Shown here piece by piece: positions 27,413 through 45,524 of a stretch of 64,000 bases of DNA; the first letter of the stretch is position 1, and every line of letters starts with the position of its first letter. The DNA is from Streptomyces sp. NA02950 (GTDB lineage: Bacteria > Actinomycetota > Actinomycetes > Streptomycetales > Streptomycetaceae), in contig NZ_CP054916.1 in the NCBI RefSeq assembly GCF_013364155.1, positions 8,338,001 through 8,402,000 of the forward strand, in the 5' to 3' direction. The notes under the pieces are model-generated. The model was given only the letters and a program-made list of their open reading frames with translations. It was not told where the DNA came from and made no database searches. Both the position numbers and the translations under genes were made by a program.

Positions 27413-27686
27413 CGGCGCCGACAGCCCCGCCCCGGGTTCCCGCTCCCGGAGGGGAGGCGCCGCGTGACGCCCGCCACCCGACGGGAAAAGCGCTGCGAAC
27501 GCACCGCCGGTCTTGGTACGTTCTGCGCAGCGGGCGGCTCTCAGGTGTGCTTCCTTCTCACTCGATTACTACGACAACCAGCGCACCGCACTTCCGCCCG
27601 CTCCAAGGCTTCACGCCGCGCCCGCCCGTACCGGCGGGCGCGGCTGTTTTCCGTCGGCGGGGGCCGTCGGACAAGGGGGATTCAGC

Positions 27687-30305
27687 ATGACCGCCACCAC
27701 CCGTGCCGCGTATGCCCGGACCGAACTCCGCGGTGTCGCCGAGGTGCTGCTCGCCCGTCGGGGCGCGGTGTTCCTGCCCGCCCACGACCGGGCGTCCGGG
27801 CCGGTGTCCCCGGAGGTGCTCGCCGGTGTGGTCCTGCTCGAGGCCGACCTCCTCGACCGCGGCTATGTGCTGTCCGCGCCGCTGCGCGAAGCACTCACCG
27901 GGAGCGGCCCCACGGCGATGGCCGTCGCCGGACGTACCCTGCTCGCCGACATCGACCGGGCGCTCGGGGCCGATCGCGACCACACCCCGATCTTCCGGCG
28001 GTTCCCCGACAGCACGCCGCACGACACCACGGCCTGCTACGTGGACCGGGTGCTGACCCTGCTGGCACAGCATCCGCGGCAGCCGTGTGTGCTGTGCGGA
28101 AGCGAGGGCACCGTCCACGCCGTCTCGCCGTGTGCGCATCTGGTGTGCCGCCGGTGCTTCGACGGATCGGACTTCGCCGCCTGCCCGATCTGCTACCGCG
28201 CCATCTCCGACGACGACCCGTTCCTGCGTCCGGCCCCGCCGCGGCCCGAGGCCGGACGCCACCGCGCACTGCCCGAGCGGCTGCGTGTCCTCGCCCTCGG
28301 CGGCGACATGGCGGCCCGTCGGCACGCCGTCCACGAGGAAACGGGCCGCCTGCTGAGCCGTACCGCCGCGCTGTCCCCGCAAGACGCCGATGACCTCGCC
28401 GCACTGCTCGAGGCGTGCGGCCGCGCCGACCTGGAGTGGCTTCCCACGACCCTGCCCGGGCGCGAGACGAAGGCGCGTGTCCTGGCGTGGCTGCTGCGCG
28501 CACCGGAGACCCGCGCCCAGGTGCTTCCCGAGGTGGCGGCGCGACTGGACACCGCCACCGACATCCTGCGGCTGCTGGCCGTGTGGTCCGGTGGCGACCC
28601 GGGCCTGGTGGAGGTCCCGCGGCTGGCCCCGGTGCCCCGGCCGGTGCGCCGGGCCCTGCTGGGCGCGCTCGACGCGCTCGACCCGGCCCTCGCCGTCGCC
28701 GACATGCGGCGCCACCGCGCGCTGTGGATCCCCGCGGCCCACGCCCTGCACCCCTTCGAGTACGCGGACCGCTATCCGCACGCCGCGCTCGCGGTGGCGG
28801 CCCTGCGGAACATCCGACTGCCGTACGACCGGTTCGGCGACGCCCTGCGCACCGCCGCCGAGCCGCTGACCTCGGTCGACACCACCGGTGACCGGCCGCG
28901 GGTGCGCACCTGGGGCGGGCGGGTGGAGACGGCGCTCGCCGACGGCGACCACCGCCGCGCCACCGCCCTGCTCGCCCAGCGCCCCGGTGAACTCCTGCGC
29001 CGCCTGGACCATCTGCTGCGGCTGGCCGGTGACGACACCGAACCCGTCCTGTCCGCCCTGCCCCGAGCGGCCACCCGGGTGTCGCCCGCGGTGCTGCTGT
29101 CCGCGCTCGGCGCCCTGCGCGCCCGCCGGCGGCCCACCGGCGAGCGAGTGTTCTTCCCCAAGGGCGCCCAGGCCAAGGCGTATCTGGCCGACGACGACCG
29201 GGACGCCCCGACGGGCCATGCGGTCGAGACGGCCATCACCGCCCTGACCGAGGAGGTGCTGCGCCGCGCCGCCGCCCTCGGCCCGCTCGACGTGGCCGTG
29301 GTCGACGCAGAACTCGACGGCATCGTCGCGCCGTTCGCCGAGCGGACCGCCTCGCGCGCCCTGGTGACCCTGCCGCGCGGCAGCGAACGTGCCCTCACCC
29401 CGGGCCGTACGCTGCGGCTGTTCCTCCACTGGACGGAGAGCGAGGAGTCCGGCCAGACCGATCTGGATCTGTCGCTGGCCCTGTTCAACGAGGACTGGGA
29501 ACACATCGGCACCTGCGACTACACCGAGCTGCGCCGCACCGGCGCCGTCCACTCCGGGGACCGCACCAGCGCCCCGGCCCCGGACGGCGCGTCGGAGTTC
29601 ATCGACCTGGACCTGGACAAGCTGGAGAACGCCGGGGTGCGTTACGCCGTCGCCGTGGTGTTCTCGTACAACGACGTGCCGTTCGTCGAGCTCGCCGAGG
29701 CGTTCGCCGGATTCATGGTCCGCGACGAACCCGGCGACCGGGGGCCGGTCTTCGACCCCCGCGCCGTCGAGCAGCGTTTCGATCTGACCTCCGCATCCCG
29801 GAGTTCGGTACCGCTGGTCCTGGACATCCCGGGGCGCACCATGCGCTGGCTCGATGTGGTCCAGGGTGTGTCCGGCACCCGTCATGCCGTCCACCGGCAC
29901 GTCAAACTGCTGGCCGTCCTCGGGAAGAGCCTCACCGGGCTGTTCGCCTCCGGCGCCCGGGTCGGTCTCGGTGAACTCGCCATCTGGCAGGCCGCGGCCC
30001 GTGCCGGCACCGTCCTGCTGCGCCACTCCGACGGCTCGATCAGCCCCTACCGCCGCCGCGAGGGCGAGGACGCCATGGCCTTCGCGGGACGCATCGGCGC
30101 GCCGGACCACGACCCGTCGGCCGGTACCGAGCAGGAACCCGCCCGGATCGGCGCGGCGTTCCTCGTCCGCGGTGACCTCCCGCTGCCCGAGGGCTGCCCG
30201 GTGTACGCCCTCCACCCGGCCGGTCTGGACGCGGCGGCGGTGCGTCTGCTGACCGCGTCCGATGTGGTCAACTCCCTGGCGCAGCACGCCACAACGGTGA
30301 ACTGA
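27687..30305 (+). CDS. RING-finger / TerD-like protein (MXAN_6230/SCO0854 family)
   Basis: Large cytoplasmic protein of 872 residues. A textbook C3HC4 RING-type zinc site lies at 134-169: C134, C137, C149, H151, C154, C157, C166 and C169. The middle (about 195-560) is helical and repeat-like. The C-terminal part (about 565-700) resembles TerD-type Ca2+-binding stress domains (RTLRLFLHWTE, DLDLSLALFNEDWEHIGTCD, SGDRTSAPAPDGASEFIDLD). Proteins with this layout are known in myxobacteria and streptomycetes, but their function is unproven. RING fingers in eukaryotes are mostly ubiquitin ligases; no E2-like gene is nearby. AAGGGGGA six bases before the ATG fixes the start. Confidence 0.88.
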   Translation: MTATTRAAYARTELRGVAEVLLARRGAVFLPAHDRASGPVSPEVLAGVVLLEADLLDRGYVLSAPLREALTGSGPTAMAVAGRTLLADIDRALGADRDHTPIFRRFPDSTPHDTTACYVDRVLTLLAQHPRQPCVLCGSEGTVHAVSPCAHLVCRRCFDGSDFAACPICYRAISDDDPFLRPAPPRPEAGRHRALPERLRVLALGGDMAARRHAVHEETGRLLSRTAALSPQDADDLAALLEACGRADLEWLPTTLPGRETKARVLAWLLRAPETRAQVLPEVAARLDTATDILRLLAVWSGGDPGLVEVPRLAPVPRPVRRALLGALDALDPALAVADMRRHRALWIPAAHALHPFEYADRYPHAALAVAALRNIRLPYDRFGDALRTAAEPLTSVDTTGDRPRVRTWGGRVETALADGDHRRATALLAQRPGELLRRLDHLLRLAGDDTEPVLSALPRAATRVSPAVLLSALGALRARRRPTGERVFFPKGAQAKAYLADDDRDAPTGHAVETAITALTEEVLRRAAALGPLDVAVVDAELDGIVAPFAERTASRALVTLPRGSERALTPGRTLRLFLHWTESEESGQTDLDLSLALFNEDWEHIGTCDYTELRRTGAVHSGDRTSAPAPDGASEFIDLDLDKLENAGVRYAVAVVFSYNDVPFVELAEAFAGFMVRDEPGDRGPVFDPRAVEQRFDLTSASRSSVPLVLDIPGRTMRWLDVVQGVSGTRHAVHRHVKLLAVLGKSLTGLFASGARVGLGELAIWQAAARAGTVLLRHSDGSISPYRRREGEDAMAFAGRIGAPDHDPSAGTEQEPARIGAAFLVRGDLPLPEGCPVYALHPAGLDAAAVRLLTASDVVNSLAQHATTVN

Positions 30306-30980
30306 GCACGAGCGGAACCACCGGTCCGGCCGCCCGCCACGGGCGGTCGGGCGCACCACAGTGCCCCGCCCGAAGTCAGGTCCTCTGCGGTACTCATGCG
30401 CTCTATGTCCATTCCGCGGGAATTCCCGGCCTTTCGGCGGAGCATCCGCCCGATGGTGCAGTTGTCATAACGCACACCGATCGGCGGGATGGGCTGAATT
30501 GGGCCGCGTTATCGGCAACCCGTCGCACATGTCGTATTCCCGGTGTGTACGGGATCGGGAATGGGAGTGCCGGTCGGCCAGTCTTCAAGCGATCGGCACA
30601 CCTATTACACAGACGACGTGTGTGGAGCCCGGATTGGGCGCCGGATCCGGTCCGCGCATGGGGGCTTCGCCCGTGATCCCGGGGTTGTCCGACGAGGTCA
30701 ACAGGGGTGCGCAGGAGAAGAGTGACGATGCTGTGAAGAAGAGCCGCACATCACGTGGCCGTCTGTGCCCACCCGGTGATCGAGACGTGACGGAATGCGC
30801 TGTTCCGTGCGACGTCTGATTCGCAGCCCACCGAGTTGGCGTGATTACATCCTTTCGCGCTGAAGCGTTCTCAGGAGCCGGTCCCCGGAATCCTGTGATT
30901 GTTCTGCGGGGGCCGAGACATTCGGCAACCGCGGGCCGCTGAAGGCTCATTCGAGATATTTATCCAAGGGAGACGCAATA
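30306..30980. other. 675-base intergenic region upstream of the peptide gene
   Basis: No convincing gene. The DNA is less GC-biased than its surroundings. It holds the perfect palindrome CGGGAATTCCCG (30417-30428) and an inverted pair, ATTCCCG (30536-30542) and CGGGAAT (30556-30562): four copies of the half-site CGGGAAT within 146 bases. ACACA (7 bases) TGTGT near 30608 is another small inverted repeat. Probably the regulatory region of the peptide operon. Confidence 0.5.
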
Positions 30981-31196
30981 ATGAACAACGCACCCAAGGT
31001 CGCGACCCAGGAGATCTCCGACGCTGAGCTGGACAACGTGGCCGGCGGGCTGGGTGCGACGGTCACCGACGCCCTCGGCACCGTCGACGCCGCCACCGCC
31101 CCGGTCACCGGCGCCGTCGGCACCGCCACCGGCACGGTGGACGGCCTCACCGGCCTGAACACCACCGGTGTTGTCGGCACCGTCGGTGCCCTCTGA
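30981..31196 (+). CDS. Double-glycine-leader peptide precursor (putative secreted peptide)
   Basis: Peptide of 71 residues. Residues 1-23 form a leader ending EISDAELDNVAGG, the ELxxVxGG pattern recognised by C39 peptidases. The predicted core (24-71, 48 residues) holds 12 Thr, 10 Gly, 8 Val, 8 Ala, 5 Leu, 3 Asp, 1 Pro and 1 Asn. It has no Cys, Ser, Lys, Arg or aromatic residue, and net charge about -3. Without Cys, lanthionine or disulfide formation is impossible. A Thr-Gly-Val pattern recurs through the core. AAGGGAGA eight bases before the ATG supports translation. The exporter set with a C39 peptidase lies just downstream. Confidence 0.8.
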   Translation: MNNAPKVATQEISDAELDNVAGGLGATVTDALGTVDAATAPVTGAVGTATGTVDGLTGLNTTGVVGTVGAL

Positions 31197-31433
31197 GGCG
31201 ACCCTCACCCCCTGAGGCGATCTCACCTCTGAGGCGACCTTCACCTCGCCTCCCGGTGCCGCCGAGCGTGGCACCACCGGTCGGACGGCCCCGCCGAACG
31301 ACCGGCCCCGTGCCCCGGGCCCGCCTGGTCCGGGGCATTCGGCGGTCCACTGGTGCCCACCCGGTGGACGGCCGCGGCGCCACCGAGCGAAGCCGCGCAC
31401 TCCATCCGTTCCCGCGGTTGAGGAAAGACTCTC
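31197..31433 (+). promoter_or_regulatory. Peptide-exporter spacer with repeats and hairpins
   Basis: TGAGGCGA occurs three times (near 31194, 31213 and 31230); the first copy contains the peptide stop codon. Two hairpins follow: GGTGCC (31255-31260) with GGCACC (31270-31275), and CCGGTCG (31277-31283) with CGACCGG (31299-31305). There is no T-run. They could partly terminate or stabilise the peptide mRNA, so that the precursor is made in excess over its exporter. Confidence 0.4.
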
Positions 31434-32240
31434 GTGCAGTTCCGCCAGCAGGCCCTTTCCAAAGCGCAGTCGGCAGAGGACATCGATCTGCCGGTGCGCT
31501 ACGCCCGCCCGCAAGGGTGGCTCGCCCTGGCGGTCACACTCGTCGTCATGGCCGCGGCCGCCGTCTGGTCGGTGACCGGCACCGTGTCCAGCACCCTGGC
31601 CGCCCCCGGCATCCTCACCCACGGACAGGGCAGTTACGTCCTCCAGAGCCCCGTCGCCGGACAGGTCACCGCCGTACTCGCCAAGGAAGGCAGCACCCTG
31701 CGCGCGGGCGCACCGCTGCTGAAGATCCGCACCCCGCGCGGCAGCAGTGTCGTACGCACCCTCGCCGCGGGCCGGCTCACCACCCTGGTCGCCTCGATCG
31801 GCTCCGTCCTCACCACCGGCGCCGACGTCGCCTCAATCGAACGGGTCCGCCACTCCCGTGACCCGCTGACCGCCACCCTCTACGTACCGGCCGGACGCGC
31901 CGCGTCGGTGCCGGTCGGCGCACCCGTCGACCTCGGCGTGCAGTCGGCGCCCACCCAGACCTACGGAGTGCTGCGCGGCCACGTCCGAGCGGTCGGCCGC
32001 ACCGCCCAGTCGCGCCAGCAGATCGGCTCCCACCTCGGCAGCGACCAGCTCGGCGAGGAGTTCTCCAAAGACGGCCCGCCGGTCGCGGTGCTGGTCCGGC
32101 TGGACCGCTCCACCGCCACCCGCTCCGGGTACCGCTGGTCCTCCCCGAAGGGCCCGCCGTTCACCCTCGACTCCATGACCCTGGCCACCGGCACGGTCCA
32201 TCTGGCCGACCGGCACCCGATCGAATGGCTGCTCCCGTGA
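31434..32240 (+). CDS. HlyD-like membrane fusion protein of an NHLM-type peptide exporter
   Basis: Protein of 268 residues: a short cytoplasmic N-terminus, one membrane helix at about 29-48 (LALAVTLVVMAAAAVWSV), then a periplasmic-adaptor-like region with a lipoyl-type half (GSYVLQSPVAGQVTAVLAKE, then GSTLRAGAPLLKI). It is shorter than Gram-negative HlyD proteins, as is normal for NHLM-type systems. It probably links the two ABC proteins into an export complex. GTG 31434 has GAGGAAAG six bases upstream. Its stop overlaps the start of the peptidase-ABC gene (GTGA). Confidence 0.83.
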   Translation: MQFRQQALSKAQSAEDIDLPVRYARPQGWLALAVTLVVMAAAAVWSVTGTVSSTLAAPGILTHGQGSYVLQSPVAGQVTAVLAKEGSTLRAGAPLLKIRTPRGSSVVRTLAAGRLTTLVASIGSVLTTGADVASIERVRHSRDPLTATLYVPAGRAASVPVGAPVDLGVQSAPTQTYGVLRGHVRAVGRTAQSRQQIGSHLGSDQLGEEFSKDGPPVAVLVRLDRSTATRSGYRWSSPKGPPFTLDSMTLATGTVHLADRHPIEWLLP

Positions 32241-34516
32241 CCACCACCCCCGACGGCGGACCGCCCCGCCCGGCACCGGCCGGCAGCAGCGGACGCCGCC
32301 GCACCGAGCCCGCCCGGGGACGACGGCGCGCCCCGCGGCGCACGGCCGGGCCCCAGCGGCCCCGGCGCCGTACCGTGCGCACCCCCACCGTGCTCCAGAT
32401 GGAGGCGCTGGAGTGCGGTGCCGCCTCGCTCGCGATGGTGCTCGGACACTACGGCCGCCATGTGCCGCTGGAGGAGCTGCGGATCGCCTGCGGAGTCTCC
32501 CGGGACGGCTCCCGCGCGAGCAATCTGCTGCGGGCCGCGCGCAGTTACGGGCTGAGCGCCAAGGGCATGCAGATGGAGCCGGAGAGCCTGGCGGAGGTGC
32601 GGGCACCGGCGATCCTGTTCTGGGAGTTCAACCACTACGTCGTCTACGACGGCATGGGGCGCCGGTTCGGCAGGCGCGGGGTGTACATCAACGACCCCGA
32701 CAAGGGACGCCGGTTCGTGCCCTCCGAGGAGTTCGACACCAGCTTCACCGGTGTGGTCCTGGTCTTCGAACCCGAGGCGAACTTCCGCCGCGGCGGCCGC
32801 CGCCCCGGGGTACTGGGCGCCCTGCCCGCCCGGATGCGGGGCACCACCGGCACCCTGCTGGCCTCGCTGCTGGCCAGTCTGCTGCTGGTGGTGGTGGGCG
32901 CCGCGGTCCCGGCGCTCAGCCGCACCTTCATCGACACCTTTCTGATCGGCGGGGAGACCTCCGCACTGGGGCCGCTGTTCGCCTCGATGGCCGTGGCGGT
33001 GCTGCTGACGGCCGTGCTCACCGGGGTGCAGCAGGCCAATCTGCTGCGCGGCCGGATCATCTCCTCCACCCTCAGCAGCGCCCGTTTCCTGCGCCATCTG
33101 CTGCGGCTGCCCGTCACCTTCTTCGCCCAGCGCAGTCCGGCCGACCTGGTCCAGCGGCTGCGGTCCAACGACACCGTGGCGGAAACACTCGCCCGCGACC
33201 TCGCCGCCGCCGCGGTCGACGGAATCGTGGTGGTGCTCTACGCCCTCCTGCTGTGGACCTACGACCCCCAGCTCACCCTGGTCGGCGTGGGACTGGCGCT
33301 GCTCAACGTGGTCGCCATGCGCGTCGTCATAAGGCTGCGCGCCACCCGGACCCAGAAACTGCGGGCCGACACCGCCCGGCTGACCACCACCTCGTACACC
33401 GGGCTCCAGCTCATCGAGACGATGAAGGCCACCGGCGGCGAGAACGGCTACTTCCGCCGCTGGGCGGGCCAGCACGCCATCACCCTCGAGGAACAGCAGC
33501 GGCTGGGTGTGCCGAGCGCGGCCCTGGCCGTGGTGGCGCCCACCCTCGCCACCCTCAACAGCGCGCTCATCCTGTGGATCGGCGGACTGCGGGCCGTCGA
33601 GGGCCATGTCTCGGTCGGACTGCTGGTGGCCTTCCAGGCGCTGGTGGCCCGGTTCACCGCGCCCATCACCCGGCTCAACGGCGTGGCCGGGCGCATCCAG
33701 GACTTCTCCGCGGACGTGGCCCGGCTGAAGGACGTGGAGAACTTCCCGCTGGACACCCTCTACACCCGCGACCAGCCGGAGCCCGACACCCGCAGGCTCA
33801 CCGGCCATGTGACGCTGGAGGACGTCACCTTCGGCTACAACCCACTGGACGAACCGCTGCTGCGCGGCATCTCCCTGTCGGTCGGCCCCGGCCGCCAGGT
33901 GGCACTGGTCGGCGGCTCCGGCAGTGGCAAGTCCACCGTGTCCCGGCTGGTCTCCGGCCTCTACCGCCCGTGGGAGGGGGCCATCCGCATCGACGGGCAG
34001 CGTCTGGAGGACATCCCCCGCGGCGCGCTCGCCGCCTCGGTGTCCTTCGTCGACCAGGATGTCTTCCTCTTCGAGGGGACGGTCCGGGACAACGTGGCGC
34101 TGTGGGACCCCTCCATCCCGGACGAGGCGGTGGTGGCGGCCCTGAAGGACGCCGCGCTCCACGACGTCATCGCCCGCCGCCCCGAAGGCATCCACGGCCG
34201 CGTCGAGCAGGACGGCCGCAACTTCTCCGGCGGGCAGCGGCAGCGTCTTGAGATCGCCCGCGCCCTGGTCCGCCGCCCCAGCGTGCTGGTGCTGGACGAG
34301 GTGACCAGCGCCCTGGACGCGCTGACCGAACGGACCGTCATGGACAACCTGCGCCGCCGCGGCTGTGCGTGTGTGGTGATCGCCCACCGGCTCAGCACCG
34401 TGCGGGACAGCGACGAGATCCTCGTCCTGGACCACGGCACGGTCGTGGAACGCGGACGCCACGAGGACCTCGCCGCGGCCGGGGGACCGTACGCCCAGCT
34501 GATGAAGGAGCACTGA
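32237..34516 (+). CDS. C39 peptidase-permease-ATPase (NHLM-type peptide exporter 1)
   Basis: Protein of 759 residues that should cut the leader after Gly-Gly and export the core. An Arg/Pro-rich N-terminal tail of about 45 residues is followed by a C39 domain with Cys60 (MEALECGAASLAMVLGHYG), His133 (EFNHYVVYDG) and Asp153 (INDPDKGRR), so the catalytic triad is complete. Six membrane helices lie at about 200-480. The ATPase has Walker A GGSGSGKST, signature FSGGQRQR and Walker B VLVLDEVTSALD. Start GTG 32237 overlaps the previous stop (GTGA); an ATG at 32225 is the alternative. Confidence 0.9.
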   Translation: MTTTPDGGPPRPAPAGSSGRRRTEPARGRRRAPRRTAGPQRPRRRTVRTPTVLQMEALECGAASLAMVLGHYGRHVPLEELRIACGVSRDGSRASNLLRAARSYGLSAKGMQMEPESLAEVRAPAILFWEFNHYVVYDGMGRRFGRRGVYINDPDKGRRFVPSEEFDTSFTGVVLVFEPEANFRRGGRRPGVLGALPARMRGTTGTLLASLLASLLLVVVGAAVPALSRTFIDTFLIGGETSALGPLFASMAVAVLLTAVLTGVQQANLLRGRIISSTLSSARFLRHLLRLPVTFFAQRSPADLVQRLRSNDTVAETLARDLAAAAVDGIVVVLYALLLWTYDPQLTLVGVGLALLNVVAMRVVIRLRATRTQKLRADTARLTTTSYTGLQLIETMKATGGENGYFRRWAGQHAITLEEQQRLGVPSAALAVVAPTLATLNSALILWIGGLRAVEGHVSVGLLVAFQALVARFTAPITRLNGVAGRIQDFSADVARLKDVENFPLDTLYTRDQPEPDTRRLTGHVTLEDVTFGYNPLDEPLLRGISLSVGPGRQVALVGGSGSGKSTVSRLVSGLYRPWEGAIRIDGQRLEDIPRGALAASVSFVDQDVFLFEGTVRDNVALWDPSIPDEAVVAALKDAALHDVIARRPEGIHGRVEQDGRNFSGGQRQRLEIARALVRRPSVLVLDEVTSALDALTERTVMDNLRRRGCACVVIAHRLSTVRDSDEILVLDHGTVVERGRHEDLAAAGGPYAQLMKEH

Positions 34517-34517
34517 G

Positions 34518-37373
34518 ATGGCCTCCGTTCACCCGGTCGCCACCGTGGCCGCGGACGGCGGCGACGCGGTGGTCCAGGCGCTGGGCGCACTCGGCACCCC
34601 CGTCGACCGCACCGGACTGCGCAGCCTTCCGCTGGAGGGCCCACAGGTGCTCTGGCTCGTCACCGGTGGCGCCCTGGACCTCTTCGCGGTCGACGCCGCC
34701 GAGGAGGGACACTGGCACTTCCTCGGACGCCTGGAGCCCGGCGCGGCGCTCCCGGGACCGGTCGAGGGCCCGCGCCACACCCTGGTCGGCAGGCCCTCGC
34801 AGGACTGCGCGGTGCGCCGGATCCCGCTGCGGGAGCTGTACCGGCCCGAGCGGTACGAGGCGTACGCCACCGGCTGGGCCGGCGAACCGTACGGCGACGT
34901 CCCGGCGACCCCGCTGGAACACGCCGTGGCGCTCGGGGTCAGCCGCAGCCTGGGCGTACTGTTCCAGGCCCCGCTGGACGGCGGCGGACCGGCGGCCGAG
35001 GGCGAGGCGGCCGACGAGGACCTGCTCTGGCTCCCGGTGCCGCCCGGAAGTGTCCGCTATGGCGCCGAGTACAGCGCCCAGGCCGCCGGTGACCTGCTGA
35101 TCGACGGTGCGCTGTGGCAGCGGATGGTCAATCAGCAGTACCGGCTCGGCACCGCCGTGGACCGCTGGATCGAGGCGCTGGAACGCACCCACGCCGACCG
35201 CACGGCGGCCGGGATCCGGGCCGGTGAGGCGGTCCGCTCCCGCGCCGACCAAGCACTGATCGCCTCCATCGGCCGCCCGCGGCAGGCGTCGCGGGCGGCG
35301 GAGGACACCACCGACGACACCGTCCACGCGGTCTGCCGCACGGTGGCCGAGGCCGCCGGAATCACGCTGGCCGACGCACCGCGGGGCGCCACCGCCGACG
35401 ACGACCGCACGAGCCCGGTGGAGCGCATCGCGGTCGCCTCCCGGATCCGTACCCGTGCCGTCCGACTGGAGGGCGAGTGGTGGCGCGAGGACGCCGGACC
35501 GCTGGTGGGCTACCGCGCCCTGTCCGGCGCCCCGGTGGCGCTGCTGTGGCGGCGCGGCCGCTACGAGGCGGTCAACCCCGCCTCCGGTCTGCGGATGCGG
35601 ATCGGCGAGGGCAACGCCGACGAGTTCGAACCGCGTGCCGTGATGTTCTACCGCCCGCTGCCCGACCGTCCGATGACGATGTGGCGGCTGCTGCGGTTCA
35701 GCGCCCGCGGGGTGGCACCCGATCTGCGCAACCTCGTGGTCGGCGGACTGGTGACGGTGGCGCTGGGCGCCCTGGTGCCGGTGGCGACCGGTCAGGTGCT
35801 CGGCGGCTTCGTCCCCCGGGCCGAGAGGAGCCCCATCGTCCAGATCGCGCTGGCCCTGATGGTCGCGAGCGTGGTCTCGGCCGCCTTCATGCTGCTCCAG
35901 AACCTGACCCTGCTGCGGCTGGAGGGACGGCTGGAGAGCACCCTCCAGCCCGCGGTCTGGGACCGGCTGCTGCGGCTGCCGACCCGCTTCTTCGCCGAAC
36001 GTTCCACCGGTGAACTGGCCAGCGCGGCGATGGGCATCAGCAGCATGCGCCGGGTGCTCTCCGGTGTCGCGCCCGTGGTCCTCCAGGCGGGCACCGTCGG
36101 CGCGATGAACCTCACGCTGCTGCTGTACTTCAGCGTGGACCTGGCGCTCGCCGTGATGGCCATGCTGCTGGTCATCTCCGGGGTGTTCCTCGGGATGGGG
36201 CTGTGGCAGGTGCGCTGGCAGCGGCGGCTGGTGGAGAGCGAGAACAAGCTCAACAACCAGGCGTTCCAGACCCTTCGCGGACTGCCCAAACTGCGGGTCG
36301 CCGCGGCCGAGAACTTCGCCTACGCGGCATGGGCCCGTGGCTTCGCCCACTCCCGCGAACTCCACCAGCGCACCGGGCGGATCAAGAACCTCACCCAGGT
36401 GCTCGACGCTGTCTACCTCCCGCTGTGCTCGCTCATCGTGTTCATGCTGCTGGCCGGACCGGCGCGGGGGAGCATGTCGGCGGGGGCGTTCCTGACGTTC
36501 AACACCTCTGTCACCATGCTGCTCACCTCGGTCACCCAGCTCACCAACGCCCTGGTCTCGGTGGTCGCGGTGCTGCCGATGTTCGAGCAGGTCAAGCCGA
36601 TCCTGGACGAGCCGCCGGAGGTCCGCGGCGGCAGTGCCCAGCCCGGGGCGCTCACCGGCGATCTGCGCGCCCGCAACCTCACCTTCCGCTACGCCGACGA
36701 CGGCCCGCTGGTCCTCGACGACGTCTCGCTGGAAATCCGGCCGGGAGAGTTCGTGGCGGTCGTCGGCCCCAGCGGCTGCGGCAAGTCCACCCTGCTGCGG
36801 CTGCTCATCGGTTTCGAACGGCCGGTGTCCGGCAGTGTGCTCTACGACGGCCAGGACCTCGCCGCCCTCGACCAGGCCGCCGTACGCCGCCAGTGCGGGG
36901 TGGTCCTCCAGAACGCCCAGCCCCTCAACGGCACCGTGCTCGACTGCATCCGCGGCGCCGAGCCGTACACCCCCGAGGAGGCCATGGCCGCCGCCGAACT
37001 GGCGGGTCTGGCCGAGGACATCCGCCGGATGCCCATGGGCCTGCACACGATGATCTCCGGCAGCGGTGCCGTCTCCGGCGGCCAGCGCCAGCGGCTGATG
37101 ATCGCCCAGGCCCTGATCCGCCGTCCGCGCATCCTTTTCTTCGACGAGGCCACCAGCGCCCTGGACAACGAGACCCAGCGGGTGGTCATCGACAGCACCC
37201 GCCGCCTCCACGCCAGCCGCCTGGTCATCGCACACCGGCTGTCAACGGTCATGGACGCCGACCGGGTGCTGGTGATGGAGGACGGGCGGATCGTCGAACA
37301 GGGCGCCCCGGCCGCGCTGATGGCCAAGCCGGGCGGAAAGCTCTACGAGCTCGTGCGGCGGCAGATGCGCTAG
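34518..37373 (+). CDS. NHLM-type ABC transporter with N-terminal regulatory domain (exporter 2)
   Basis: Protein of 951 residues, second ABC component of the same exporter. The N-terminal 380 or so residues lack a C39 domain and resemble the cNMP-like/regulatory part of NHLM_micro_ABC2 proteins (VLWLVTGGALDLFAV). Membrane helices lie at about 400-680 and the ATPase at about 715-945, with Walker A GPSGCGKST, signature VSGGQRQR and Walker B ILFFDEATSALD. Only one base separates it from the preceding stop, so both ABC subunits are co-translated and probably pair as a heterodimer. Confidence 0.88.
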   Translation: MASVHPVATVAADGGDAVVQALGALGTPVDRTGLRSLPLEGPQVLWLVTGGALDLFAVDAAEEGHWHFLGRLEPGAALPGPVEGPRHTLVGRPSQDCAVRRIPLRELYRPERYEAYATGWAGEPYGDVPATPLEHAVALGVSRSLGVLFQAPLDGGGPAAEGEAADEDLLWLPVPPGSVRYGAEYSAQAAGDLLIDGALWQRMVNQQYRLGTAVDRWIEALERTHADRTAAGIRAGEAVRSRADQALIASIGRPRQASRAAEDTTDDTVHAVCRTVAEAAGITLADAPRGATADDDRTSPVERIAVASRIRTRAVRLEGEWWREDAGPLVGYRALSGAPVALLWRRGRYEAVNPASGLRMRIGEGNADEFEPRAVMFYRPLPDRPMTMWRLLRFSARGVAPDLRNLVVGGLVTVALGALVPVATGQVLGGFVPRAERSPIVQIALALMVASVVSAAFMLLQNLTLLRLEGRLESTLQPAVWDRLLRLPTRFFAERSTGELASAAMGISSMRRVLSGVAPVVLQAGTVGAMNLTLLLYFSVDLALAVMAMLLVISGVFLGMGLWQVRWQRRLVESENKLNNQAFQTLRGLPKLRVAAAENFAYAAWARGFAHSRELHQRTGRIKNLTQVLDAVYLPLCSLIVFMLLAGPARGSMSAGAFLTFNTSVTMLLTSVTQLTNALVSVVAVLPMFEQVKPILDEPPEVRGGSAQPGALTGDLRARNLTFRYADDGPLVLDDVSLEIRPGEFVAVVGPSGCGKSTLLRLLIGFERPVSGSVLYDGQDLAALDQAAVRRQCGVVLQNAQPLNGTVLDCIRGAEPYTPEEAMAAAELAGLAEDIRRMPMGLHTMISGSGAVSGGQRQRLMIAQALIRRPRILFFDEATSALDNETQRVVIDSTRRLHASRLVIAHRLSTVMDADRVLVMEDGRIVEQGAPAALMAKPGGKLYELVRRQMR

Positions 37374-39331: not shown

Positions 39332-40159
39332 TCACGGCTTCCGGCCGACCCCGCCGAACATCGCCACCTCCTCGGGCTCGTCCCCGGAGGTGTCCTCCAG
39401 CCGCCACCGCGAACAGGAGACCACGCCCGGTTCCAGCAGCTCCGTACCGTCGAAGAACCGGGCGACCCGGTCCGGGGTGCGCTGGGTCAGCTTCGGGATG
39501 CCGTTCTCGTTCCAGAACGCGACCGCCTCGTCCACATCCGGCATCGACGGGCTGGAGATGGTGTGGGACAGCACCAGATGGCTTCCGGAGGGCAGGGCGT
39601 CCACCAGGCTGCGGACGATGCCGTACGGGTCCTCGTCGTCACCGATGAAGATCACCACACCCAGCAGCATCAGCGCGACGGGCCGGGTGAAGTCCAGGAC
39701 CTTCCGGGCGCGTTCGAGGATGGTGTCGATGTCCCGCAGATCCGCGTCGAGGTAGTCGGTGACCCCCTCGGGAGTGCTGGTCAGCAGGGTGCGCGCATGG
39801 GCCAGCACCAGAGGGTCGTTGTCGACGTAGACCACCCGGGACTCCGGTGCGATCCGCTGCGCGACCTCATGGGTGTTGTCCGCGGTGGGCAAGCCCGTGC
39901 CGATGTCCAGGAACTGACGGATCCCCCGCTCGGCGGTCAGATACCGCACCGCACGGCCGAGGAACGCCCGGTCGGCCAGGGCGTAGTCACCGATCCCGGG
40001 GTGCAGCCTGCGGATCTGGTCGCCCGCCTGCTGGTCGACGACGTAGTAGTCCTTGCCACCGAGCCAGTAGTTCCAGATCCTGGCGGTGTGCGGCCGGGTG
40101 GTGTCGATCCGGCCGGCGACTCGTGCGGCGGAGTCGTAGGTTGCCTCATAGTCCGTCAC
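39332..40159 (-). CDS. SAM-dependent methyltransferase, Methyltransf_19 (DUF574) family
   Basis: Protein of 275 residues. It opens with the family hallmark RPHTARIWNYWLGGKDYYV, has the SAM motif FLDIGTGLPTADNTHEVAQ (about 75-93), VVYVDNDPLVLAHARTLL for ribose binding and ALMLLGVVIFIGDD. This family is expanded in Streptomyces; substrates are unknown and it is often next to regulators. GTG 40159 follows GAGAGG. It is read in the same direction as the following SpoIIE-type gene but separated by 80 bases. Confidence 0.9.
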   Translation of the reverse strand: MTDYEATYDSAARVAGRIDTTRPHTARIWNYWLGGKDYYVVDQQAGDQIRRLHPGIGDYALADRAFLGRAVRYLTAERGIRQFLDIGTGLPTADNTHEVAQRIAPESRVVYVDNDPLVLAHARTLLTSTPEGVTDYLDADLRDIDTILERARKVLDFTRPVALMLLGVVIFIGDDEDPYGIVRSLVDALPSGSHLVLSHTISSPSMPDVDEAVAFWNENGIPKLTQRTPDRVARFFDGTELLEPGVVSCSRWRLEDTSGDEPEEVAMFGGVGRKP

Positions 40160-40239: not shown

Positions 40240-42684
40240 TCAGGGCGCGGGGAGCGGCTGTTCGCACCAGATGACCTTGCCGGTCGGGGTGTGGCGGGTG
40301 CCCCAGCGCTGGGTGAGCTGCGCGACGAGCAGCAGGCCCCGGCCGCCCTCGTCGAGGACGCGGGCCCGGCGGGCGTGCGGGACGGTACTGCTGGCGTCGG
40401 ACACCTCGCAGATCAGCGCGCGGTCGAGGATGAGCCGCAGCCGGATGGGGGCGGTGCCGTACCGGATGGCGTTGGTGACCAGCTCGCTGACGACCAGTTC
40501 GCTGACCACGGCCGTCTCCGCCAGGTCCCGTTCCGTCAGCCAGCGCACCGCGTCCGCCCGCACCTCGGCCACCGCGGCGGGGTCCGCCGGTACCTCCCAG
40601 GCCACGACCCGGTCCGCGTCCAGCCGCCGCAGCCGGGCCAGCAGCAGGGCCGCGTCGTCGCCGATACGGTCGGGGAGCATCGTGTCGACGACCTGGTCGC
40701 ACAGCGTGTCCAGCCCCTCGGCGGGGAGCGTCAGGGCGTGGCGGAGGGTGTCCAGCCCGGCGTCCATACCGCGGCTGCGGGACTCCACCAGCCCGTCGGT
40801 GTAGATGGCGAGCAGACTGCCCTCCGGCAGCTCCGCCTCCAGCGCCTCGAACGGCAGCCCGCCCAGACCCAGCGGAGGCCCCGCGGGCAGGTCGAGGAAG
40901 GTGGCGGGGCCGTCCGGTGGGACCACCGCGGGGGCCGGATGACCGGCGCGGGCGAGGCTGCACCGGCCCGACACCGGGTCGTAGACGGCGTAGAGGCAGG
41001 TGGCGCCGAAGTCACCCGCCGTGGCCTCGTCCGCCTCCAGCTCTGGGGCGTCGTCCCGCCGCGCCACCAGGTCGTCCAGCTGGGTGAGCAACTCCTCGGG
41101 CGTCAGGTCGACTTCGGCCAGGGTGCGCAGGGCGGTGCGCAACCGGCCCATCGTGGCGGACGCCTGGAGACCGTGGCCGACCACATCCCCGACGACCAGC
41201 GCCACCCGCGCCCCGGACAGCGGAATCACATCGAACCAGTCGCCGCCGATCCCCGACCGGGCCGCCGCCGGAAGATAGCGGCTGGCCACCTCGGCCGCGG
41301 ACTGCTCCGGCAGCCGCCGCGGCAGCAGACTGCGCTGCAACGCCAGGGCCGAGGCGCGCTCGTGGGTGTAGCGGCGGGCGTTGTCCAGACAGACCGCCGC
41401 ACGCGCCACCAGCTCCTCGGCCAGGGAGAGATCCTCGGTGTCGAACGCCTCGGCCGTGGCGGACCGGACGAAGTCCACCACGCCCAGCGTGGTGCCCCGC
41501 GCGATCACCGGCACCACCAGCCATGAATGGAACCCGTACTGCATGGCCTTGGCGAACCGCTCGGGGTCCTCCTGCGTCGCCCAGGAGCGCAGTTCGTGGT
41601 CCATCACCCGGTGCAGCTCCGAACGGCTCGTCGCCAGGGCCCGGGCGTGCGGCGAGCGCGCCGAGTAGAACGCCACCTCGCCCACCTCGCTCACCGCCTC
41701 CGGCGCGCCCTCGCGCACGGACTGATTCGCCACCCGCCGCAGCACCGCCCCGGTGACCGGCCCCGGCGGCGGCTCCTCACCCCGCAACAGCGACTCCAGC
41801 AGATTCACGCTCACGAAGTCGGCGAGCCGGGGGACCACCAGCTCGGCCAGCTCCTGACCGGTGCGCATCACATCGAGGGTGCTGCCGATCCGGGTACTGG
41901 CCTCGTTCAGCAGGGCCAGCCGCTCCCGGCCGCGATGCTGCTCGGTGACATCGCGCGACGTGGCGCACAGCCCCACGATCCGGCCCTCCCGGTCGCGGAG
42001 CGGGGAGGCGGACATGGCGAAGAAGTGGTCGTGGTCCGGGTCCGCCCGGGTGCGCCCCTGGAGCACATAGCCCTCGTCCGCCCGCCCCGTCTCCAGCGCC
42101 CGCCGCATCCGCGCCTCCCACTCAGCGCTGCCGGGCCCGGTCACCGCGGCCGACAGCCCGCGCCCGACCCGGTGCTCACCCCGGATGCCGACGATGTGCT
42201 CCATCGCCGGGTTCTGCCGGACGAACCGCAGATCGGTGTCGTAGACGGCCAGGGCGACCGGGGAGCTGGTCAGCAGCCAGTCCGACAGGGACTCGCCACC
42301 CGGGAACGGCGCCTCCCCGGCCGAGGGCTCCGCCGTCAGCAGCCACAACGGTGCGTGATCGCCTCCCGCCAGCCGGTGTACTCGGACCCGGCAGGTCAGC
42401 CGATGGCCCTCGCGGTGGCGGAGCGCGAGCCGGCCGTGCCACTCCTGGCGGTCGGCCGACCACGGTGGCGCCCCCTCCAGCAGCTCGGTCACCGGACCCC
42501 CGACGGCTTGCGCGGGGCTGTGGCCGAGCAGCCGGGTGGCGGCCTCGCTCCAGACCACCACCTCGCCCGCCGCGTCGATCATCATCAATGGGCTGCCCGG
42601 AGCCGCGCCAGGCCGTATGGCCTCACCGCTGGGAGGGGCGCCCCGCGTGTCCATACCCTCCAGCGTGGTCCGAGAGCCGGACAT
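40240..42684 (-). CDS. PAS-PAS-GAF-SpoIIE phosphatase with C-terminal ATPase
   Basis: Regulator of 814 residues. PAS domains lie at about 30-125 and 130-250 (SPVALAVYDTDLRFVRQNPA), a GAF domain at about 265-430, SpoIIE/PP2C at about 440-670 (GGDWFDVIP, VVGDVVGHG, IYTDGLVESR), and a HATPase_c domain at about 690-810 (SELVVSELVTNAIRYG, then EGGRGLLLVAQL). Same logic as the protein at 747: a sensor-controlled phosphatase plus an anti-sigma-like kinase domain. Start uncertain: ATG 42684 has no clear ribosome site, while ATG 42654 has GGAGG only two bases away. Confidence 0.92.
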   Translation of the reverse strand: MSGSRTTLEGMDTRGAPPSGEAIRPGAAPGSPLMMIDAAGEVVVWSEAATRLLGHSPAQAVGGPVTELLEGAPPWSADRQEWHGRLALRHREGHRLTCRVRVHRLAGGDHAPLWLLTAEPSAGEAPFPGGESLSDWLLTSSPVALAVYDTDLRFVRQNPAMEHIVGIRGEHRVGRGLSAAVTGPGSAEWEARMRRALETGRADEGYVLQGRTRADPDHDHFFAMSASPLRDREGRIVGLCATSRDVTEQHRGRERLALLNEASTRIGSTLDVMRTGQELAELVVPRLADFVSVNLLESLLRGEEPPPGPVTGAVLRRVANQSVREGAPEAVSEVGEVAFYSARSPHARALATSRSELHRVMDHELRSWATQEDPERFAKAMQYGFHSWLVVPVIARGTTLGVVDFVRSATAEAFDTEDLSLAEELVARAAVCLDNARRYTHERASALALQRSLLPRRLPEQSAAEVASRYLPAAARSGIGGDWFDVIPLSGARVALVVGDVVGHGLQASATMGRLRTALRTLAEVDLTPEELLTQLDDLVARRDDAPELEADEATAGDFGATCLYAVYDPVSGRCSLARAGHPAPAVVPPDGPATFLDLPAGPPLGLGGLPFEALEAELPEGSLLAIYTDGLVESRSRGMDAGLDTLRHALTLPAEGLDTLCDQVVDTMLPDRIGDDAALLLARLRRLDADRVVAWEVPADPAAVAEVRADAVRWLTERDLAETAVVSELVVSELVTNAIRYGTAPIRLRLILDRALICEVSDASSTVPHARRARVLDEGGRGLLLVAQLTQRWGTRHTPTGKVIWCEQPLPAP

Positions 42685-42755
42685 ACTCAAGCCGCTGGGC
42701 CGCCGTCCAGCCCCACGGGGCCCCGCCGTGACGCCGGGCCGTCGGATCGCCGGGG

Positions 42756-45329
42756 TCAGCGCAGCGTCGCGGTGAAGCTGCGCCCGTAGGCGTGGCGGGT
42801 GGTGACGTCGATCCGGGTGCCGCCGCGCACCCGGGAGACCCGGACCCCCTCGTCCGCCTCGAGCGCCCTCATCCTCCGGCCCCGGACCAGCACCGAGACC
42901 GTGTCCCGTTGAGTGGTCGGGTCCGCCACGGCGAGTGACACCGTGCCGTCGTGCGCCGCACCGCGGTGGGCCGCGCGCAGGATCACCGAGCCCGGTCCGT
43001 CGATCGACAGCAGTCCGGCGCGGTGGGTGCCCCGGGTGAACGCGTTGAGGGCGACCAGACCCAGCCCCCGGTGGCGGACGGCCTGCGCACGGGTGGTGTT
43101 CACCAGGACCGACAGCGGCCCGTCCGCGTACGCCCGCAGACCCTCCGCCGAGGCGTGCGGGACCAGGGCGTAGGCCATCGAGCGGTGCGGCACACCGGCC
43201 CGCTGCTCCACCGCGACCGAGAAGACCTGGGTGGTCACCGGGGTGTCGGGGTTGGACAGACGCACCGCACGGCGGCTGCGGGTGACGGTGTCGAGGGTCA
43301 CGGTGGGCCGTGGTGTGTCGAGGAAGACATAGCCGACGGAGGTGGACCGGGTGGTGTTGCCGTAACGCAGCCACGCCAGCGGGGCCGTGCCGGTGCCGGA
43401 CCACGGGGTGCCGTCGCGGAGCTGTCCGGTGACGGTGAGGGTGTCCGACGGCGGGGCGATCCGGCTGTCGACGGTCGTGGTCACCGCGCGCCCGGAGGAG
43501 TCGCCCACCCCGGCGGCGAGGACGACGATCTCGTCGTCGAACATGAACCACGACTTGGTGGCGTCCGCGTTGCGGTGGACGACGAAGTCGTCCGGCAGCT
43601 CGCCGTCCCGCTTCGCCGCGTACGCCACGTCGTCCGACTGCACCAGCCCGGCCGCACCGTACGCGCCGAGGGCGGCGCCACCGGAGAACGCGTGGGTGCC
43701 GCGCGGGAAGTACACATAGGTGTTCTGCGCTTCGGAGGAGGCGGTGAAGCCGCGCTCGGGGTTGTCGTACCAGAGCGTGCCGTACAGCTCGGGGACGGTG
43801 CGCCGGGTCTCCACGGGGGCGGTGACACCCGCCAGGCGGTAGGGCGGGACCGTGGTGAAGTAGTCGACGCCGAACGCCCGGGTCTGGTCCTGACCGGAGA
43901 GATAGAGGTAGTGGGCGCCGTCGCCCTGGAACCACGGCATCAGGTTCTCGCCGCTCATGTACTCGTACTTGCTGATCCTGGCCGAGCTGCGGGCCAGCGC
44001 GAAGGCGTACCCGGGGCGCCGGTGGACCGTCTTGTCCATGGCGTTGAACGCGATGTGGTGCGCGGCCGGGGTGAGGTCCTTCGCCGGGGCCGACGGATCG
44101 GCGAGGATGTCGGCGTAGCGGGCGATGCTCACCGGGGAGACGAACGCCGACGGATCGAGCGCGGCCTTGGAGGTGTTGCGGACGAACGCCACATAGCCCT
44201 TGAGCGCCGTGGCGTCCGTGCCGGTGGTGTGGCCGGAGAGGTCGACGACGGCCTCGACGACCTGGGTGACATCGGTGTACCCGGTGGTGGTCCGGGACAC
44301 CCCGCGCCCCTTGACGATCTCCATCATCCAGCCCTCGAAGATCAGCGGGGCGAAGCCGTCCACGACCCAGCGCTGCGCGGTGCGCACGAGGTCCGCACCG
44401 CGCACATAGCCGGTGCCGTCGAGCATCTTGACGGTCTGCACCACACGGGTGAGCAGCCCCTTGCCGTAGGAGCCGGTGTAGGCAACCGAGGCGTGCTGGA
44501 TGAAGGAACCGTCCGCGTAGAAGCCGTCGGTGACACCGTGCCGCGGGTGGTAGGGGTCGATCGTGGCCAGAACCGTCAGCTGGTCGGCCACCGCCTTGCT
44601 CACTCGGGTGTCGTCCTCCAGCACCGCCCCCTGGAGCATCCGGTTGGTGGTGATGTCCGCGAGGTTGGCGCCGGTGTGGAAACGGGAGTCCGGATCGACA
44701 TCGCCGTCCTTGCCGTTGCGCAGATAGGCGTCCATCGAGGCCACGTAACCGGCGGTGAGGTCCGGCCGGTGGGCGGCGAGTGCGTCCCGCAGCAGCACCA
44801 GAATTCTGCTGACATGGGAGGAGATGCCGATCTCCCAGGTGAACCAGTTGCCGTAGTAGCCCTTCGACTGGTCGCCGTAGTAGTGCTCGTGAAGCCACAC
44901 CAGACCGTCGATGACCCGCTGCTGGACGGCCGGGTCACCGCGCAGCGCGGACGGCGGTCCGCCGGGGACGCGGGTGGCGAGGGCGATCTCGTAGAGGTAC
45001 TGGTACGAGGTCATCAGGTTGGGGTCGCTGGTGCCCAGCGGCAGCCCCTTGAAGAGTTCGCCCTCCCCGGCACCGTCCATCGCGGCGAGCCGGGAGCGGG
45101 CGGTGGTGGCGATGGCCGTGAGCTTGGCGGCCACTTCCGGCCGGGCGTTGGAGTCGGCGGTTCCGGCGAAGACGGCGACCGTGTTGTCGATCAGCGTGGC
45201 GTGGTCGGCGGCCGCGTCGGTGGCCGAGGCGGCCGGACGGGCCGCCGTCCGTGCGCGCGGCGGCTGGGCGAGAGCCGCCAGGGACACGGCGGGGGCCAGG
45301 GACAGCAGGTCACGACGTGAGAGAGGCAC
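42756..45329 (-). CDS. Secreted polysaccharide lyase family 8
   Basis: Tat-exported lyase of 857 residues. The signal has SRRDLLSLAPAVSLAALA near the start. An alpha/alpha-toroid domain (about 40-390) carries the expected catalytic His279 and Tyr288 (FIQHASVAYTGSYG, nine residues apart as in the family) and Asn near 229. NWFTWEIGIS contributes to the aromatic patch. Beta-sandwich domains follow. PL8 enzymes cleave hyaluronan, chondroitin or xanthan by beta-elimination; which one cannot be told. GTG 45329 has GGAG eight bases upstream. A LacI-type operator lies upstream. Confidence 0.92.
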   Translation of the reverse strand: MPLSRRDLLSLAPAVSLAALAQPPRARTAARPAASATDAAADHATLIDNTVAVFAGTADSNARPEVAAKLTAIATTARSRLAAMDGAGEGELFKGLPLGTSDPNLMTSYQYLYEIALATRVPGGPPSALRGDPAVQQRVIDGLVWLHEHYYGDQSKGYYGNWFTWEIGISSHVSRILVLLRDALAAHRPDLTAGYVASMDAYLRNGKDGDVDPDSRFHTGANLADITTNRMLQGAVLEDDTRVSKAVADQLTVLATIDPYHPRHGVTDGFYADGSFIQHASVAYTGSYGKGLLTRVVQTVKMLDGTGYVRGADLVRTAQRWVVDGFAPLIFEGWMMEIVKGRGVSRTTTGYTDVTQVVEAVVDLSGHTTGTDATALKGYVAFVRNTSKAALDPSAFVSPVSIARYADILADPSAPAKDLTPAAHHIAFNAMDKTVHRRPGYAFALARSSARISKYEYMSGENLMPWFQGDGAHYLYLSGQDQTRAFGVDYFTTVPPYRLAGVTAPVETRRTVPELYGTLWYDNPERGFTASSEAQNTYVYFPRGTHAFSGGAALGAYGAAGLVQSDDVAYAAKRDGELPDDFVVHRNADATKSWFMFDDEIVVLAAGVGDSSGRAVTTTVDSRIAPPSDTLTVTGQLRDGTPWSGTGTAPLAWLRYGNTTRSTSVGYVFLDTPRPTVTLDTVTRSRRAVRLSNPDTPVTTQVFSVAVEQRAGVPHRSMAYALVPHASAEGLRAYADGPLSVLVNTTRAQAVRHRGLGLVALNAFTRGTHRAGLLSIDGPGSVILRAAHRGAAHDGTVSLAVADPTTQRDTVSVLVRGRRMRALEADEGVRVSRVRGGTRIDVTTRHAYGRSFTATLR

Positions 45330-45362
45330 GGGATACGCTCCAACGCTCGCGAGGATGTGGAT

Positions 45363-45376
45363 GGAAAGCGCTTGCG
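45363..45376 (-). promoter_or_regulatory. LacI/GalR-type operator upstream of the lyase gene
   Basis: GGAAAGCGCTTGC (45363-45375) contains the perfect palindrome AAGCGCTT (45366-45373) with the central CG typical of LacI-family sites. It lies about 35-48 bases upstream of the lyase start, where a repressor would block transcription until a sugar inducer is present. No LacI gene lies in the window. Confidence 0.6.
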
Positions 45377-45524
45377 GCATTGAACCAACCCCGGCGTCCA
45401 CTGTCACTAGCGGGCACCGGCCACCGGGTGATCGGCGCCACCACTGCTCCGAAGTGCGCAACTCTCGATCACTTTCTGATGGCGGGCCAGGGACGGGCGG
45501 GCCGGTGGGTTAACGTCTGTCGCT

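Follow-up and report, generated by a model that had tools for sequence, protein, structure and literature searches.

A 64,000-nucleotide stretch of the Streptomyces sp. NA02950 genome (hereafter the window; 8.338-8.402 Mb, or roughly 8.34-8.40 Mb, of 9.77 Mb) carries, on its forward strand, an operon for a double-glycine precursor peptide, a HlyD-like adaptor, an ATP-binding cassette (ABC) protein with a C39 peptidase domain (C39-ABC) and a second ABC protein. Our comparisons make it reasonably probable that peptides encoded at dispersed sites, under common control and unmodified, are all secreted by this single NHLM-like exporter; in Streptomyces and other members of its family, the operon would then supply the export machinery at the centre of a scattered peptide regulon. 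The unit itself is already known, and the new part is the set of scattered peptides that co-occur with the exporter and share an upstream box with it.

A peptide profile search of the NA02950 genome recovered a second leader peptide at 4.4516 Mb, 3.9 Mb from the exporter, with the same leader type (EIADSELENISGG), a different, Cys-free core and three database homologues besides itself. Among 295 Streptomyces genomes, HlyD was matched in 221 and the operon peptide in 218, namely in 217 of the 221 HlyD-positive and in 1 of the 74 HlyD-negative genomes. In the four HlyD-positive genomes that lacked the peptide (G005, G028, G038 and G187), HlyD was matched weakly (E 1.8e-7 to 2.5e-58), and the proteins concerned may be different HlyD proteins. 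A first check with a leader profile gave matches in 42 of 42 genomes with an earlier peptide match and in 0 of 18 without one, a selection that was circular. When 74 genomes were drawn at random from the 221 HlyD-positive ones, 73 matched the leader profile, with 117 matches in all and at least two in 34 genomes, the sole exception being G038, with its weak HlyD match. Only 1 of the 74 HlyD-negative genomes matched (G001, 79% completeness, with the match at a contig end), and none of the 69 of good quality did. With the full profile, at least two matches were found in 99 genomes, every one of which was HlyD-positive (99/99). In a class-wide draw, the leader profile matched 26 of 33 Streptomyces genomes (33 read from a sorted listing) versus 1 of 312 others, the latter weakly (E 1.1e-4), and within the family it matched 129 of 249 genomes, belonging to 9 of 17 genera.

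A new observation is that many exporter-bearing genomes encode, at sites distant from the exporter, extra peptides that share the leader but differ in their cores; no published description of these scattered peptides was found in the open-access literature searched. The set analyzed comprises 41 peptides, from 40 loci, for which the sequence retrieved (about 4 kb on either side in most cases) contains no exporter; the loci were drawn mainly from genomes with at least three matches, and the second peptide of NA02950 was counted apart. Their cores form several unlike types, such as Leu-Pro-Gly-rich, pilus-assembly-adjacent and single-Cys ones, and no partner gene recurring across the types emerged from the filtered open reading frame (ORF) comparison. 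The same exporter would handle these peptides in trans. The single-Cys type, the main Cys-bearing branch seen, occurs in loci L138, L150, L165, L172, L174, L176 and others. Another type, AGGQAGG...GLYVETT (L139, L149, L171, L173 and L175), adjoins TadE-like pilus-assembly genes and a gene for a small helical WXG100-like protein, labels that were assigned by eye.

Peptide genes near and far from the exporter share an upstream box, GTGNTTNSATC. In the window it reads GTGATTACATC (30841..30851, + strand), lies 140 bp before the peptide start and is the single match in the 64 kb, where shuffles expect 0.27. The box was present in 67 of 83 peptide upstream regions versus 2 of 581 control regions, which lie upstream of other genes predicted in loci of this kind. 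By set, it was found in 21 of 21 main loci (20 evenly spaced picks among the 79 named main loci, plus the window), in 18 of 20 loci of a second core class and upstream of 28 of 42 scattered peptides, with shuffles of each set averaging 0.04-0.11. Because the box was defined on the very sequences counted, it was checked separately in loci fetched later and recovered in 18 of the 26 parsed (28 tried), or in 17 of 25 after removal of one whose upstream sequence was identical to one already used. TTGG stands 16 or 17 bases before the box in 38 of the 67 box-bearing relatives and CTGG in 11 more; the corresponding upstream half of the element in the window, TTCG (30820..30823, +), identified by upstream comparison, is a weak match to it. 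A longer pattern fitted to both NA02950 sites, CGTGNTTNSATCC, has four matches in that genome, two of which are the leader peptide sites, and the reversed control has one; no leader peptide was found within the 450 bases examined at the other two matches. The position of the box before exporter operons and most scattered peptides suggests one control; the box is presumably a promoter read by a sigma factor or the site of a regulator, through which a regulator would turn on both the operon and the peptide genes scattered elsewhere.

The expression evidence comes from the literature on Streptomyces coelicolor, in which the SCO0753-0756 unit has been described as encoding a conserved peptide without Cys together with its exporter, and as being conserved in many Streptomyces (PMC6629963). 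As described there, it resembles the NA02950 operon in gene order, in its small, Cys-free, hydrophobic peptide, and in encoding HlyD and two ABC proteins; the reported peptide has 77 residues, as against 71 here, and 77-residue predictions exist among the homologues. SCO0753 was reported as the single most overexpressed gene upon activation of Sco5282 and as nearly silent in a null mutant of the Sco5282/5283 two-component system; its log2 change was 6.3, and those of the exporter genes were 4.25-4.4 (PMC6629963). In S. coelicolor, control of the regulon would probably run through Sco5282/Sco5283. The earlier note on this DNA had called the system perhaps undescribed; that suggestion falls, given SCO0753-0756 (PMC6629963) and comparable cyanobacterial clusters (PMC3140520). 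Scattered peptides, a shared box and a LanC/YcaO test do not figure in the passages of PMC6629963 considered here.

Folding of the gap between the peptide gene and hlyD revealed a GC-rich hairpin with a 12-bp stem (31310..31338, +), probably a partial terminator or a 3' stabilizer. We compared 80 loci (80 named loci out of 225 relatives, plus the window, minus one in which the peptide pattern was unmatched), and all 80 have a strong hairpin in this gap (-23.7 to -44.2 kcal/mol, median -32.5), the longest stem measuring at least 9 bp in 79. Over 40 loci, the hairpins averaged -32.5, versus -18.5 in shuffled sequences (stronger in 39 of 40) and -22.2 upstream of the peptide; since the stems were located separately in each sequence, pair changes are not claimed as covariation. 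The hairpin would fit a peptide transcript more abundant than the exporter transcript and may lead to the peptide being made in excess over its exporter.

The operon is highly constant. At E<=1e-3, 109 homologues of the peptide were retrieved, and the order peptide-hlyD-first ABC-second ABC is kept at every one of 40 loci, those of 39 relatives and that of the window, so that the four genes noticed earlier from the sequence form a unit beyond chance. The precursor (30981..31196, +), defined by its ORF, homologues, alignment and composition, has 71 residues and no Cys. Its 23-residue leader (30981..31049, +), which ends in ...EISDAELDNVAGG (AGG), holds the majority of the invariant and near-invariant columns of the homologue alignment (A1), and the predicted mature core (31050..31193, +) has 48 residues without Lys or Arg, a mass of 4285.7 Da if unmodified and a pI of 4.05. 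The C39 peptidase/permease/ATPase (32225..34516, +; PF03412; start codon uncertain) scores 1009.5 bits against NCBIfam TIGR03796 (cut-off 853.3), and the second ABC permease/ATPase (34518..37373, +), which lacks a peptidase and in which Walker A, signature and Walker B strings were located, scores 886.6 bits against TIGR03797 (cut-off 709.4); both are thus NHLM proteins by these models. The HlyD-like adaptor (31434..32240, +; PF13437) is short, with 268 residues versus a family model length of 421, and its best NCBIfam match, TIGR03794, stays below the NHLM cut-off (139.1 versus 156.2 bits), with two matched stretches, the better one covering model positions 254-417 of 421.

The full catalytic triad claimed for the C39 domain proved intact, with Cys64, His137 and Asp157, plus the oxyanion Gln58, all seen in an alignment with the double-glycine protease PDB 6mpz (8.9e-46), and a PF03412 search found this C39 domain as the only one in the NA02950 genome. 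Judging from these motifs, the C39-ABC is a double-glycine processing exporter that would cut the precursor after Gly-Gly, and the two ABC subunits with the short HlyD would move the core out. Compared with the described NHLM/NHLP export set (TIGR03794/03796/03797; PMC2887384), both ABC proteins exceed their cut-offs and the adaptor is a short relative. The window unit differs from that set, as outlined in the source, in the adaptor score, in having no thiazole/oxazole-modified microcin (TOMM) enzyme or LanM alongside and in its precursor, which falls below the cut-offs of the NHLP model TIGR03793 (11.9 versus 50.9 bits) and the Nif11-type model TIGR03798 (12.6 versus 32.3 bits); against the CTB-family model, it scores 17.1 with a cut-off of 32. 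At one locus (L106, genome G179), the best-matching piece of the C39-ABC aligns with just 409 residues of its counterpart in the window, in a sequence without N, and this copy is possibly broken. An Rfam scan of positions 30300-31600 yielded nothing at the gathering threshold, and PADLOC gave zero matches on the peptide and HlyD.

Many of the peptide homologues carry the database name 'type A2 lantipeptide', which is wrong. Cys occurs in 0 of the 109 homologous cores, and the match to the type-A lantibiotic model PF04604 is weak (19.6 bits, below the cut-off of 21.7); in homologue P0084, a Cys is present in an N-terminal extension. LanC-like proteins, found in 256 of the 295 genomes and absent from 39, are no prerequisite for the unit: 32 of the 39 LanC-free genomes have HlyD, and all 32 also the peptide, a frequency comparable to that in LanC-bearing genomes (189 of 256; Fisher p 0.33). 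Moreover, YcaO was found in 19 of these 32 genomes and not found in the other 13. A LANTHIPEPTIDE identity of the unit was rejected on the Cys-free cores and on the LanC-free genomes that still carry HlyD and peptide, and LanC and YcaO routes were rejected as a requirement by this co-occurrence. NA02950 itself has four LanC-like matches, the three listed lying at about 0.07, 7.47 and 9.55 Mb, away from the window. That the peptide is a lanthipeptide or another ribosomally synthesized and post-translationally modified peptide (RiPP), matured by an enzyme encoded elsewhere, is accordingly very unlikely, even with the lantipeptide name and the weak PF04604 match, the presence of LanC-like proteins in most genomes and the possibility that radical SAM, ATP-grasp or other enzymes outside the LanC and YcaO kinds could act.

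The earlier note had found no tailoring enzyme encoded between 27.7 and 42.7 kb. This stands for LanC-like and YcaO proteins, neither of which was matched among the Pfam-scanned ORFs around the operon (about 27.5-45.5 kb; YcaO was not searched genome-wide), but the interval does encode a PF04672 S-adenosylmethionine (SAM)-dependent methyltransferase (about 39335-40117, - strand). The latter was set aside as a tailoring enzyme because relatives, at 47-49% identity, occur in just 2 of the 39 other loci (L082 and L106). The gene-order search proposed in the same note returned no additional gene in more than 22 of the 40 loci and no tailoring enzyme common to all of them, in a filtered ORF comparison that recovered the peptide in just 29 of 40 and the hlyD cluster in 21 of 40, and can thus miss small or odd genes. 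Exporter and peptide recur in a further 19 loci with a different core class, where the next gene is present in 5 of 19 and, again, no tailoring gene is common to all. By tblastn of 14 window ORFs (22-46 kb) against the 39 other loci, the three exporter genes were found in all 39, one other ORF in 1 and ten in none. Recurrent neighbours among the 40 loci encode an alpha-lytic-type protease (22 loci), a PAS/GAF-SpoIIE protein (21) and a major facilitator superfamily (MFS) protein (17), by Pfam on one example each; none of the three occurs at every locus or is a known RiPP enzyme, and they perhaps reflect clade synteny. The protease gene is divergent and mostly 1-2 kb upstream of the peptide (for example, L070:742-2424, - strand). 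As no enzyme of the LanC or YcaO kind appears to be needed, the core is most likely exported unmodified. The simplest reading of the earlier note, a secreted unmodified peptide, gains from the lack of a tailoring gene common to all of the 40 or all of the 19 loci and from the 13 genomes in which LanC-like and YcaO proteins were not found, and stays a prediction from sequence.

Decoration after export, for instance O-mannosylation of a Ser/Thr-rich core, seems the least probable of the alternatives, with hardly any weight in our estimate. Ser and Thr make up 12 of the 48 core residues in the window peptide, but protein O-mannosylation acts on Sec-exported proteins. Up-regulation of sco0756 has been reported in Ppm1-deficient S. 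coelicolor (PMC5882110), an effect that may be unrelated to decoration.

If the cores leave unmodified, they could be class II-like bacteriocins that kill related strains, with the exporter or an unlinked gene conferring immunity. We regard this as possible but unlikely. A double-glycine leader with a C39-ABC, as found here, is a hallmark of class II unmodified bacteriocins, and together with HlyD these proteins make up a bacteriocin export set. The core also evolves fast beside a conserved leader: in 513 close, non-independent pairs with ungapped cores, dN/dS was 0.61 for the core and 0.22 for the leader, with 0.31 for HlyD and 0.13 for the C39-ABC as exporter controls (the core value of 0.89 obtained without distance control was replaced by this estimate). 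Usual, though not strictly all, bacteriocins are cationic and amphiphilic, and the main cores (median length 48 residues) are instead acidic and Gly/Ala/Val-rich; Lys and Arg are absent from 107 of 109 main cores, 9 of 19 second-class cores and 25 of 39 parsed scattered cores (two were unparsed), the latter two sets being less strict. Median net charge, as Lys/Arg minus Asp/Glu, is -2, -1 and -2, respectively. Furthermore, no extra gene that might confer immunity was found in all of the 40 main loci, in all of the 19 loci of the other core class or across the scattered types, although small immunity genes may escape the ORF filter, and the spread of HlyD over 221 of 295 genomes is not patchy. 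The S. coelicolor cluster SCO0753-0756 has been labelled 'bacteriocin' in the literature (PMC5733086, PMC6414726).

Secreted signalling, in which a C39-ABC would export pheromone-like peptides in the manner of competence systems, appears less likely still. The C39-ABC exporters of the ComA type (PDB 8hf4, 8hf5, 3k8u) are related in sequence, several peptides under one control would suit a signal set, and genes for PAS/GAF SpoIIE-type phosphatases lie near the operon in 21 of 40 loci, with relatives of the window protein (40243-44898, - strand) in 23 of the 39 other loci, a higher frequency than we would have anticipated. These relatives are just 27-42% identical, lie within several kb of the operon and differ in distance and strand, and the SpoIIE-type phosphatase family is large in Streptomyces. 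No receptor kinase gene was seen in all loci, and the main cores are long and variable for signals.

Prochlorosins are a precedent for one LanM serving many precursors. The likeness lies in a single shared machine that handles numerous precursors alike in leader but different in core; the machine shared in our case would be the exporter rather than a modification enzyme, and most cores here lack Cys. For prochlorosins, 29 precursors to one LanM have been reported (PMC3951391). The export set and precursor clusters have also been described in cyanobacteria (PMC2887384, PMC3140520), where clusters with HlyD, C39-ABC and double-glycine precursors mostly lack LanM and where, as here, there are several precursors per genome (PMC3140520). 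The counts given in the latter source concern precursors near the clusters, in contrast to the scattered, box-sharing precursors described here.

Several observations weigh against a dispersed, co-regulated set of unmodified peptides served by one exporter. The co-occurrence counts ignore kinship, and the exporter-negative genomes may cluster in few clades. The strict box is missing upstream of 14 of 42 scattered peptides, from 2 of 20 clusters of the second class and from 8 of the 26 loci fetched later; among the latter, it is missing from 4 of the 5 that belong to two further genera of the family. A single core Cys in 12 of the 41 scattered peptides makes modification possible in principle, and enzymes outside the LanC and YcaO kinds, such as radical SAM and ATP-grasp proteins, may still act. 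The link to SCO0753 is one of gene order and description, S. coelicolor not being among the 80 listed of 225 relatives, and the control of the SCO0753 unit by Sco5283 may be indirect. A relative of the SpoIIE-type phosphatase lies within the fetched stretch of 23 of 39 loci and may be a partner. As for function, the core evolves faster than the exporter (0.61 versus 0.31 and 0.13), a poor fit to a tightly constrained structural role, and at least one Lys or Arg is present in 10 of 19 second-class and 14 of 39 parsed scattered cores. The structure prediction for the peptide was of low confidence (predicted local distance difference test 59.7) and the fold search gave no match; neither was used.

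Directly upstream of the operon, positions 27513-30305 encode a RING-domain protein of the MXAN_6230/SCO0854 type (NF041916, 1104 bits) with a weak TerD-like stretch, and downstream lies a gene for a polysaccharide lyase family 8 protein (42759-45461, - strand).

SapB and the chaplins are small, hydrophobic, secreted peptides linked to hyphal morphology, and the same functional guess can be made for the peptides described here. SapB is a lanthipeptide that needs Cys and chaplins are exported by Sec; neither is known to use a C39-ABC exporter. Because the main cores are acidic and Gly/Ala/Val-rich and a link to morphology exists in S. coelicolor, we prefer, as a low-confidence guess, a role at the hyphal surface or in the matrix to that of pore-forming bacteriocins. 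SapB is also discussed in the report on SCO0753-0756 (PMC6629963). In its most extended form, which we put forward tentatively and think more apt to fail than to hold, the exporter would serve unmodified, Gly-rich and mostly acidic peptides that are encoded at dispersed sites, regulated together and spread through the family. In addition to SapB and the chaplins, these peptides would form a third secreted layer at the hyphal surface or in the matrix, would be under the control of Sco5282/Sco5283 and would switch the mycelium between pelleted and dispersed growth. The unit is present in most of the Streptomyces genomes sampled, and its peptide has been named for a chemistry that is impossible without Cys. 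If trans export is true, mining tools restricted to the surroundings of exporters would miss many substrates, and the main antibiotic-producing genus would possess a strongly regulated set of secreted peptides that could be tested in S. coelicolor by deleting one exporter.

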